A stretch of DNA of 64,000 nucleotides from Streptomyces sp. NBC_01197 (lineage in GTDB: Bacteria; Actinomycetota; Actinomycetes; Streptomycetales; Streptomycetaceae), in contig NZ_CP108569.1 of assembly GCF_036010505.1 (NCBI RefSeq), positions 4,568,001-4,632,000 on the forward strand, given 5' to 3'. The notes under the pieces were generated by a model that worked only from the letters and a program-made list of their open reading frames with translations, searched no databases and was not told the origin of the DNA. Positions 2,547-56,731 of the stretch are shown here, in pieces. The position numbers and the translations under genes were made by a program. How positions within the stretch are numbered: position 1 is the stretch's first letter; every line of letters begins with the position of its first letter.

Positions 2547-2720
2547 TCAGCGACGGCCCGCGCGGTACGCCTGGTTGATCTCGTTCTGGGTGGCACCCGC
2601 CGCACCGGCCTCGCTGGCGGTGGCCTGCACCTTGCGGTCGGACGACGGGACCTGCAGGCGCTTGTCGATACGGGCGGCCTGGGTCAGGCGGGAGAGAGCA
2701 GCGTTCTTCTTGGCAGACAT
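2547..2720 (-). CDS. 57-residue AICE protein, unknown function
   Basis: Starts MSAKKNAALSRLTQAARID and ends NEINQAYRAGRR. It is basic, Ala- and Gln-rich, has no cysteine or membrane segment, and probably forms helices. The ATG at 2720 has a strong ribosome site (CAGGAGAAACGC). Codon-position GC bias supports it as a real gene. It lies between a tRNA-like minihelix upstream and a 12-bp hairpin downstream. I do not recognise a family. Confidence 0.65.
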   Translation of the reverse strand: MSAKKNAALSRLTQAARIDKRLQVPSSDRKVQATASEAGAAGATQNEINQAYRAGRR

Positions 2721-2763
2721 GCGTTTCTCCTGAGGGGTGTGTGATGTCCGCGTGGTGCGGACC

Positions 2764-2806
2764 GTGCCCCGGCGGGGAGTCGAACCCGGCCTGCGACCTT
2801 CGGGGC
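2764..2806 (-). ncRNA. tRNA-like minihelix A (acceptor stem + T-arm)
   Basis: Read on the minus strand it begins GCCCCGA, has a ~10-nt linker (AGGTCGCAGG), then CCGGG, the classic T-loop TTCGACT, CCCCG, CCGGGGC and A. GCCCCG pairs with CGGGGC (6 bp) and the T-stem pairs in 4 of 5 positions, giving the exact 7+5 spacing of a tRNA acceptor/T-arm stack plus a discriminator-like A. D-arm and anticodon arm are missing. It lies in the gap between the RapZ-C gene and the 57-residue gene, on the strand of the operon. A near copy lies upstream of the RapZ-C gene. Confidence 0.55.
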
Positions 2807-2822
2807 TGTGGAGCCGTGTGCG

Positions 2823-3209
2823 TCAGCGCTGGACGACGGGTTCACCGATGTCGCGGTGGGTGAGGGTGACGCTGGCCCCGGCTGCTTCAAGGCGGGCGGC
2901 GAGGCTCATGGCGAAGGTCGGGGCGCGGTGTCGGCCGCCGGCGCATCCGTCGGCGACGACGATCGTTCCGGTGCTGGGACCGGAGGCGAATCCGGCGACC
3001 GCGGCGGCCGTGGCTTCCACCAGGGCGGCGATACCGGGAGTGCCGAGAACCGCCGTGCGGACCGGCTCGTCCGCTGCGGTCATGTAGCGCAGTTCCGGGC
3101 TGACGTGCGGGTCCCGGAAGTGGTGGCGCAGGTCGATGGTCAGGTGCGCGGCGGGCGGCGCCCCGTGGAGGTAGCCGAACGAGACGATCTCAACCGTTGT
3201 TTCGGGCAT
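2823..3209 (-). CDS. RapZ C-terminal-domain-like protein of AICE
   Basis: 128 residues. Residues ~85-128 carry the signature of the RapZ C-terminal domain (ADGCAGGRHRAPTFAMSLA, then a THRDIG end), comparable with CTGGQHRS...HRD in RapZ. In E. coli the RapZ C-terminal domain binds small RNAs (GlmZ/GlmY); the N-terminal P-loop domain is absent here. Stand-alone copies are frequent in Streptomyces AICEs, with unknown role. The ATG at 3209 has a GAGGAG ribosome site. Two tRNA-like RNA elements flank the gene in the same operon, which fits an RNA-related function by inference only. Confidence 0.7.
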   Translation of the reverse strand: MPETTVEIVSFGYLHGAPPAAHLTIDLRHHFRDPHVSPELRYMTAADEPVRTAVLGTPGIAALVEATAAAVAGFASGPSTGTIVVADGCAGGRHRAPTFAMSLAARLEAAGASVTLTHRDIGEPVVQR

Positions 3210-3253
3210 GGCGGATCTCCTCTGAGCTGGGAGGAAGGAAGGGGTGAAGGGGA

Positions 3254-3297
3254 GTGCCCCGGTCGGGAGTCGAACCCGGCCTTGCGACCATCGGGGC
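3254..3297 (-). ncRNA. tRNA-like minihelix B (acceptor stem + T-arm)
   Basis: Minus strand: GCCCCGA, linker TGGTCGCAAGG, CCGGG, T-loop TTCGACT, CCCGA, CCGGGGC, then AC. The acceptor-like stem is 6 bp and the T-stem pairs in 4 of 5 positions. It matches minihelix A almost base for base, including the 5' half, so the whole fold and not only a tRNA 3' end is conserved. It sits between the 68-residue gene and the RapZ-C gene. Confidence 0.55.
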
Positions 3298-3308: not shown

Positions 3309-3515
3309 CTACATTTCGTTGAGGCGGTTGATGCTCTCGTTCTCCTCGTACGTGATGTTGGTCCTGACGGACGCGTTGCAGCCGTTGCTGCCCCCGTTGC
3401 ACTCGTAGATGGGCTCGAACGACAGCTTCTGCATCGGCTGGCCGTGGTGCTCGGGCGGTGTCTTGAGCCCTCCGGCGACCTCGTCCTGGGTGAAGTTGTT
3501 GAGGCGGCGTCCCAT
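3309..3515 (-). CDS. 68-residue protein, first gene of the AICE operon
   Basis: Starts MGRRLNNFTQDEV. The C-terminal half carries two cysteines in a Gly/Asn-rich stretch (YECNGGSNGCNAS) and ends acidic (ENESINRLNEM). The ATG at 3515 has a clear AAGGAG site nine bases upstream. No family recognised. Leader-like size and a two-Cys C-terminal part would also suit a small secreted or modified peptide, but no maturation enzyme is nearby. Confidence 0.6.
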   Translation of the reverse strand: MGRRLNNFTQDEVAGGLKTPPEHHGQPMQKLSFEPIYECNGGSNGCNASVRTNITYEENESINRLNEM

Positions 3516-3907
3516 GCTGATCACTCCTTGATGTGGTCCGGATCGGTTCCGGCTCCCCTCAGCCCCGCCCGTACGGCCGTATCGGCCGGACGGGCGGAGG
3601 AGGCAACCGGCCGCAGCAGCAGAAATGCGCTGCGGAGACGGTGGGTGGAACGGGTTCGGTCCTCTTCGCACGGCGCTGCTCGTTCCGGGGGAGGGCCGAA
3701 GCCCGGAAGTCGTGCAGCCAAAGGTGGCCGTGCGGTTCTTTAGAGCCGATTGCGTGTCCCCCACTCGGAGGGGTGGGGCCCGGTTGTGACACCGGGCCCG
3801 GTCTCGATCGGCTGGTCTCCACTCGCCTCGGCCGGTGTCCTCACGGCCGTCGTGCTGCGGTGGATCACGCTGTGCAGTTGTTGCGCCCGTTCGGACCGGG
3901 GTCCATC
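3516..3907. other. Leader region of the AICE operon with two strong hairpins
   Basis: No convincing gene. Two inverted repeats stand out: 3565-3597 (CCGCCCGT-A-CGGCCG, TAT loop, CGGCCG-G-ACGGGCGG) and 3776-3799 (GGGCCCGGT, six-base loop, ACCGGGCCC). If the operon starts near 3914, as the promoter suggests, both would be in a ~400-nt untranslated leader and could work as attenuators or processing sites. Confidence 0.5.
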
Positions 3908-56720: not shown

Positions 56721-56731
56721 GCGCTGTGCTG

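Follow-up and report, generated by a model that had tools for sequence, protein, structure and literature searches.

Covarying tRNA-like minihelices between genes of actinobacterial mobile elements and phages: candidate substrates of RNase P

RNase P is an essential ribozyme. In mitochondria, tRNA units between genes release the messages (tRNA punctuation), and in the early operon of phage T7 the gene boundaries carry hairpins that are processed by RNase III. Cleavage of polycistronic mRNAs by RNase P itself was reportedly described in E. coli by Li and Altman in 2003. Hairpins reduced to the acceptor stem and T-arm are cleaved efficiently by RNase P, and replacement of the T-loop lowers this cleavage, according to a review (PMC11143913).

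The tRNA-like minihelices described here, usually 41–45 nt long, lie between genes of actinobacterial mobile elements and phages. Set against mitochondrial punctuation, they contain no functional tRNA, having neither anticodon nor D-arm. They resemble the T7 sites as hairpins at gene boundaries but differ in fold and in presumed enzyme. A cut in an operon mRNA would be common to them and to the E. coli case, whereas the candidate site here is a tRNA-like element of mobile DNA that is dedicated to the purpose, conserved and present in multiple copies. With AT1 and the other acceptor/T-arm model substrates (PMC11143913), they share the acceptor, T-stem and T-loop, a mostly unpaired base before G1 and A73-C74. 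They differ in being natural, repeated and placed within operons, in carrying a bulge of ~10–12 nt with GGU, in mostly not encoding C75 and A76, and in that their cleavage is presumed. A literature search, mostly without subscription journals, found no description of such an element, and the minihelix is not given as an RNA feature in the annotated phage and plasmid records examined. The 50-bp Vardy motif is a TATAAT promoter and not a tRNA-like element (PMC9671010); the CaiB repeats adjoin start codons, with no tRNA-like element described (PMC9302106).

The window, a 64,000-nt stretch of the genome of Streptomyces sp. NBC_01197, contains two such elements around a gene for a RapZ C-terminal-domain (RapZ-C) protein. 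The original prediction of two tRNA-like minihelices flanking this gene was confirmed on the minus strand, with the acceptor, the TTCGACT loop and the discriminator A:

2547–2720, minus strand: downstream small ORF, 57 aa, without family match
2727–2731, minus strand: AGGAG, after the second hairpin of copy 1
2746–2762, minus strand: second hairpin GTCCGC-ACCAC-GCGGAC directly after copy 1 (from sequence; order as in the phage cassettes)
2764–2806, minus strand: minihelix copy 1, 43 nt
2801–2806 and 2766–2771, minus strand: copy 1 acceptor, 5' and 3' strands
2790–2800, minus strand: copy 1 internal segment, AAGGTCGCAGG
2785–2789/2773–2777, minus strand: copy 1 T-stem, one C.C mismatch
2778–2784, minus strand: copy 1 T-loop, TTCGACT
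2765 and 2764, minus strand: copy 1 end, A73 and C74
2823–3209, minus strand: RapZ C-terminal-domain gene between the two copies, 128 aa (Pfam PapZ_C, PF22740, E 3.8e-24)
3254–3297, minus strand: minihelix copy 2, 44 nt
3292–3297 and 3256–3261, minus strand: copy 2 acceptor, 5' and 3' strands
3280–3291, minus strand: copy 2 internal segment, ATGGTCGCAAGG
3275–3279/3263–3267, minus strand: copy 2 T-stem, one C.A mismatch
3268–3274, minus strand: copy 2 T-loop, TTCGACT
3255 and 3254, minus strand: copy 2 end, A73 and C74
3309–3515, minus strand: upstream small ORF, 68 aa, without family match

Both copies have the 6-bp acceptor GCCCCG/CGGGGC and 12 nt from the T-loop to the discriminator, followed by A73-C74. 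Copy 1 starts 16 nt past the RapZ-C stop codon and lies 43 nt ahead of the next ATG; copy 2 starts 11 nt past the stop of the ORF at 3309–3515 and 44 nt ahead of the RapZ-C ATG. Model R1, of which both are seeds, scores them at 69.2 bits (copy 1) and 67.1 bits (copy 2). By inspection of the sequence, no second hairpin comparable to that of copy 1 follows copy 2. The RapZ-C protein also matches NCBIfam RapZ at E 1.4e-18, under the cut-off of that model. Genes for a tyrosine integrase and for a protein of 742 aa lie in flanking sequence of the same genome; the latter matches a type VII secretion ATPase model weakly (E 0.00056, far under cut-off), and the neighbourhood is in line with an integrative conjugative element.

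The window copies are not ordinary tRNA genes (RF00005): ARAGORN calls neither as a tRNA, and Rfam gives none at its gathering score. The sole tRNA called within the window is at position 56731, and 14.5 kb of adjoining sequence yielded none. A third structured intercistronic element (class III; window 3546–3610, minus strand; CCGGTTGCCTCC-long GC stem-GAGGGGAGCCGGAAC), without an Rfam match at gathering in the window scan, fills a similar slot and is also found upstream of RapZ-C in loci L002–L006, L009, L013, L015, L016 and L018.

Folded singly, the two window copies are thermodynamically ordinary (z −0.33 and −1.06), and the single-sequence fold pairs the internal GGUC with GGCC in competition with the T-stem. 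Since single-sequence folding is unremarkable, the case depends on comparison. Within the 25 loci fetched with the RapZ-C protein, the geometry around TTCRAYT occurs eight times with an internal gap of 10–11, versus 0 for four scrambled-loop controls. Among 11 seeds (9 distinct), 95.9% of paired cells are formed versus 92.2% after shuffling, and two pairs show double changes. MAFFT alignments A1, A3 and A4, with the 5' half misaligned or in two registers, were excluded from pair counts. RNAalifold finds double changes in 10 of the 11 pairs of a model-fitted alignment (92 sequences). The pair counts of alignment A6, which is fitted to the model, are biased toward it.

A letter-selected test is free of that bias. 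IMG/VR scans and the loci (375 sequences) gave 245 distinct matches to GCCC, GGTTCGAYTCC and GGGCAC; removal of 47 that overlapped ARAGORN tRNAs left 198, and five with a gap of 6–7 were left out. With kinship among the sequences ignored, as in the model-fitted statistics, the three unselected outer T-stem pairs of the matches with a gap of 8–13 (n = 105) are formed in 95.2% of cells versus 44.7% when shuffled (maximum of 2000 shuffles, 53%), and the three unselected inner acceptor pairs in 64.1% versus 43.3% (maximum of 2000, 50.2%). Matches with a gap of 14–34 (n = 88) give 94.7% versus 41.9% for the T-stem and 59.8% versus 38.9% for the acceptor. Both stems covary, the T-stem strongly. The earlier claim that the 5' half is conserved and the fold kept, for which a covariance analysis had been proposed as the check, is borne out: both stems change in a compensatory manner, an outcome that favours the fold.

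The predicted 7+5 geometry held for the 12-nt spacing from T-loop to discriminator; the stack of the family, on the other hand, is better read as 6+6, and the T-stem is mismatched once in each window copy. Acceptor positions 7 and 66 are mostly A and C, and nucleotide 66 is instead paired by RNAalifold with nucleotide 48, with double changes in 16 of the 92 model-fitted matches. Because nucleotide 66 pairs with 48 rather than with 7, the 12-bp stack is 6+6. The result is an acceptor/T-stem of ~12 bp, presumably coaxial, with a 7-nt T-loop, as in a minimal RNase P substrate; some Konstantine and MrMiyagi copies read as 11 bp instead of 12. GGN occurs within the first six internal nucleotides of 97 of 109 elements, and GGT in 77. 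This GGU, which resembles the D-loop GG and is mostly conserved across the family together with R73-C74, probably docks into the T-loop in the manner of D-loop G18-G19. The constancy of the T-loop is partly selection, because almost all of the searches included it.

The usual place of the minihelix is established in phages and plasmids. Many gaps between small genes of annotated phages hold a cassette in which a stop codon and a few nucleotides precede the minihelix; ACG comes next, then in many cases a second hairpin, and an A/C-rich stretch leads to the Shine-Dalgarno sequence and start codon, with modal spacings of 7–9 nt past the stop and 43–50 nt ahead of the start (outliers to 217 and 517). 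Gaps were also chosen from annotation alone (96 same-strand gaps of 60–210 nt in 12 phage and plasmid loci picked for carrying elements; Morgana and Trine entered with part of their gene lists). The true T-loop geometry was present in 48 of the 96, four scrambled loops in 0/96, and the opposite strand gave 1; half of the gaps thus hold no element by that scan. Of the R2 matches at E ≤ 0.01 in 11 loci, whose records partly seeded R2, 42/45 lie in gaps with both neighbours in the direction of the element, and such same-direction gaps make up 10.9% of bases. On the strand examined, an R2 match is found in 16/17 same-strand gaps of 70–210 nt in VanLee, 7/8 in Cafasso, 8/17 in MrMiyagi and 5/11 in Konstantine; VanLee carries 16 copies, and almost none of its intergenic gaps lacks one.

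Morgana, which contributed to none of the models, has 10 R2 matches. Nine of them fall in same-direction gaps, one of these with a 1-nt overlap of a gene end. As a relative of Cafasso that was also among the BLAST matches, Morgana is independent only in part. One slot of Morgana and Cafasso has the same downstream hairpin, and there both stems are rewritten with pairing kept. The tenth Morgana match (L424 22309–22354) lies inside a small CDS of no known function (L424 22170–22394), which may be a false gene call. The other three of the 45 R2 matches belong to Trine, which has three near-identical tandem minihelices in a repeat (L082 11510–11782) overlapping annotated gene 40 (L082 11516–12319), a gene call that may be wrong. 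Of the 50 Streptomyces matches, examined on the element strand only, 28 have an ORF stop no more than 60 nt upstream and 35 have a start with a Shine-Dalgarno sequence no more than 110 nt downstream. The downstream coding direction is that of the element in 42, opposite in 2 and unclear in 6; upstream, the counts are 27, 4 and 19.

The spread of the family is equally a matter of observation. At E ≤ 0.01, R1 matched 54 of 392 same-genus genomes, presumably Streptomyces, 12 of which are candidates with a best match weaker than E 3.1e-6; the strong set (E ≤ 3.1e-6) comprises 50 matches in 42 of the 392. Across the phylum the element is rare, with R2 under strict filters matching 10/396 genomes at E ≤ 0.001, and 5 of the 12 matches in the phylum search are tRNA-Leu genes (L384, L386–L389). 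In the genome of the window itself, R2 at E ≤ 1 finds no copy beyond the two described; two other weak matches there are whole tRNA genes (L391, tRNA-Arg; L392, tRNA-Glu). Weak R2 matches, being in part real tRNA genes, must therefore be checked. Minihelices at L382, L390 and L385, from two genomes of one other genus in the phylum, have a very different acceptor, AGACGG/CCGTCT or AGGCGG/CCGTCT, and ARAGORN calls no tRNA there.

BLAST places the element in phages of Gordonia, Mycobacterium, Streptomyces and Corynebacterium and in one Gordonia plasmid, for the most part outside annotated genes. Genes annotated without a known function cover the matches in Trine, Journey13 and Fowlmouth; no gene is annotated over the match in MrMiyagi, which belongs to the phage species of Fowlmouth. 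A sister form (class II) has the loop ATCGAAT, ATCGACT or ATCGGAT, in many cases with an internal GCC-GTGA-GGC, and occupies the same kind of slot in other RapZ-C loci and in Streptomyces plasmids. Examples with A at loop position 54 are:

L107 298–347: class II minihelix
L107 2348–2397: class II minihelix
L380 6695–6743: class II minihelix
L013 4385–4435: class II minihelix

The class II loop begins with A, and a 6-bp stem with a 5-nt loop would fit equally well, so its T-loop is a candidate. The internal hairpin of many class II copies is GNRA-like.

The ends of the elements resemble those of tRNA genes. In 45 phage and plasmid elements located in gaps, from a scan unselected on positions 73–75, C74 is present in 41 and C75 in 3, and N73 is A in 36, G in 6 and C in 3 (R73, 42/45). 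Among the 50 Streptomyces elements, 49 carry C74 and all carry R73, bases that the model used to find them itself favours. In the host tRNA sample (36 distinct gene contexts, from 30 loci of 68 matches), CCA is encoded in 7/36, and the remaining 29 have C74 in 29/29 and C75 in 6/29. C74 is kept and C75 mostly absent in both, so the 3' ends of the elements are like those of host tRNA genes; the scarcity of C75 also means that one RNase P contact is lost.

At the 5' boundary, U is the commonest base at −1 in many bacteria, and it is found in 575 of 1143 tRNA calls of the examined loci. U at −1 is rare in the elements (6/109, and 3/50 in Streptomyces), where A and C predominate. Host tRNAs (n = 36) have C in 14, A in 9, U in 8 and G in 5, and in mycobacteria C−1 outnumbers U−1, as stated in PMC11143913. 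The base ahead of G1 is mostly unpaired in the elements; in pre-tRNAs and model hairpins, an unpaired N−1/N73 leads to cleavage mainly at +1, according to PMC12710915.

We propose, with a probability of roughly 0.55, that the elements are intercistronic punctuation, a minimal substrate of RNase P and the tRNA maturation machinery that separates cistrons. Of the three readings in the original prediction, that of RNase P cut sites is the one supported, because of the anatomy, the position and the tRNA-gene-like ends, from which the cleavage itself is inferred. The minihelices would be transcribed within the long polycistronic messages of mobile elements and phages as minimal tRNA mimics, the acceptor-like stem stacked on the T-arm (12 bp) and the GGU docked in the T-loop. 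The end-maturation machinery of the host would recognise the minihelix, and RNase P would most likely cut 5' of G1, just past the stop codon of the upstream gene; trimming of the 3' end may come next. Such processing would separate cistrons or small gene blocks, with a presumed effect on expression. A broader version, for which we see a little less than an even chance, is that one expression architecture, spread by horizontal transfer, is common to the phages, plasmids and integrative elements of actinobacteria: blocks end in a stop codon and a 43-nt tRNA mimic, and host RNase P cuts the long transcripts into single messages. That architecture would cover many gene blocks, and almost every one in some phages.

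If true, RNase P punctuation would be a systematic mRNA-processing role for bacterial RNase P encoded by mobile DNA, and it would account for the regular gaps of ~80–100 nt between small genes in several actinophages. The family would supply dozens of natural variants of a minimal RNase P substrate, and the long-standing question of whether RNase P shapes mRNAs in vivo would become directly testable in Mycobacterium smegmatis and Streptomyces. The minihelix would also serve as a marker of operon units in phage genomes whose genes are mostly unannotated.

The main rival, a real one that we nevertheless consider unlikely, is an uncleaved structural element after the stop codon that guards the upstream message from 3'-5' exonucleases or halts drifting ribosomes, any cutting falling in the unstructured stretch ahead of the Shine-Dalgarno sequence. 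The location shortly past stop codons fits such a protector or insulator. So does the second hairpin that follows 32 of the 45 phage and plasmid minihelices (shuffled mean 13.8, maximum 21), a feature supported for the phages and plasmid and not claimed for the whole family: the Streptomyces class I elements show no excess (36/50; shuffled mean 29.5, maximum 38). One MrMiyagi slot holds a plain GAAA hairpin in place of the minihelix, and in other elements the class III structure stands next to RapZ-C in a slot of this kind; both observations keep this rival alive. Stability alone, however, needs no T-loop, GGU or R73-C74, all of which are kept across phages and plasmids of several genera, and scrambled loops of the same geometry are absent from the annotation-chosen gaps. 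In the gap sequences read by eye, a U run never directly follows the stem, as it would in an intrinsic terminator.

Less probable still, and in our judgement doubtful, is recognition by another tRNA enzyme (RNase Z, the CCA-adding enzyme or a T-loop-modifying enzyme) with no RNase P cut, by which upstream messages would gain a tRNA-like 3' end. The R73-C74 end, the canonical T-loop and the rarity of U at −1 are all compatible with it, but if the only cut were at the 3' end, there would be no obvious need for a 5' boundary that is mostly unpaired or for conservation of the 5' half.

RapZ binds structured RNA in E. coli, and a RapZ-C gene lies between the window copies. A similar element is found within ~700 nt of the gene in 8 of the 25 RapZ-C loci (L001, L002, L003 in a divergent form, L008, L010 twice, L011, L012 and L014). 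It is nonetheless very improbable that the minihelices act in autoregulation as sites bound by RapZ-C or another protein that the element encodes. The window protein has matches in just 8 of 51 loci (2.5–4 kb) around class I matches; these represent six genomes, since L026 and L039 are the window itself and L028 and L057 come from one genome. Among 11 element-bearing phage and plasmid records, two have a weak RapZ-C match and nine have none. From these counts the adjacency is mostly incidental, and the suggestion that the minihelices are RapZ-C ligands is left unsupported. A scan of L019–L022 likewise found no such element beside the gene; the same scan also missed the L003 variant.

Integrative elements often carry tRNA 3' ends. 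Such fragments are discussed in PMC9897764, but the reading of the minihelices as remnants or decoys of a tRNA attachment site, or as decayed tRNA genes, is contradicted by conservation that extends beyond the tRNA 3' side to the 5' half, by compensatory changes in both stems and by many copies per phage, mostly intergenic and in gene direction, and we regard its chance as negligible.

Known RNA families were also compared. In the window and in four further phage loci, the elements match none of the Rfam families at gathering; the tRNA test with ARAGORN and Rfam found just one true tRNA in those four loci. ARAGORN called two phage elements as odd tRNAs (L077 4245–4335 and L082 11714–11782). 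In laxer scans of eight loci, the sole same-strand Rfam match overlapping class I elements was mascRNA-menRNA (RF01684), itself a small tRNA-like RNA; membership was ruled out by scores of 22.6–25.4 bits against a gathering threshold of 42.5 (E 0.65–3.4). The YrlA Y RNAs (RF02553) are also tRNA mimics, and the Rfam scan gave no YrlA match at the VanLee minihelices. The Streptomyces plasmid NZ_CP108706 (L380 1–32084) apparently consists of two near-identical halves that share their protein accessions; this may reflect a dimer or a misassembly. Elsewhere in Gordonia phage VanLee (L077 17194–19232), a Ro-like protein is encoded with a sub-threshold YrlA match nearby (47 bits of 69).
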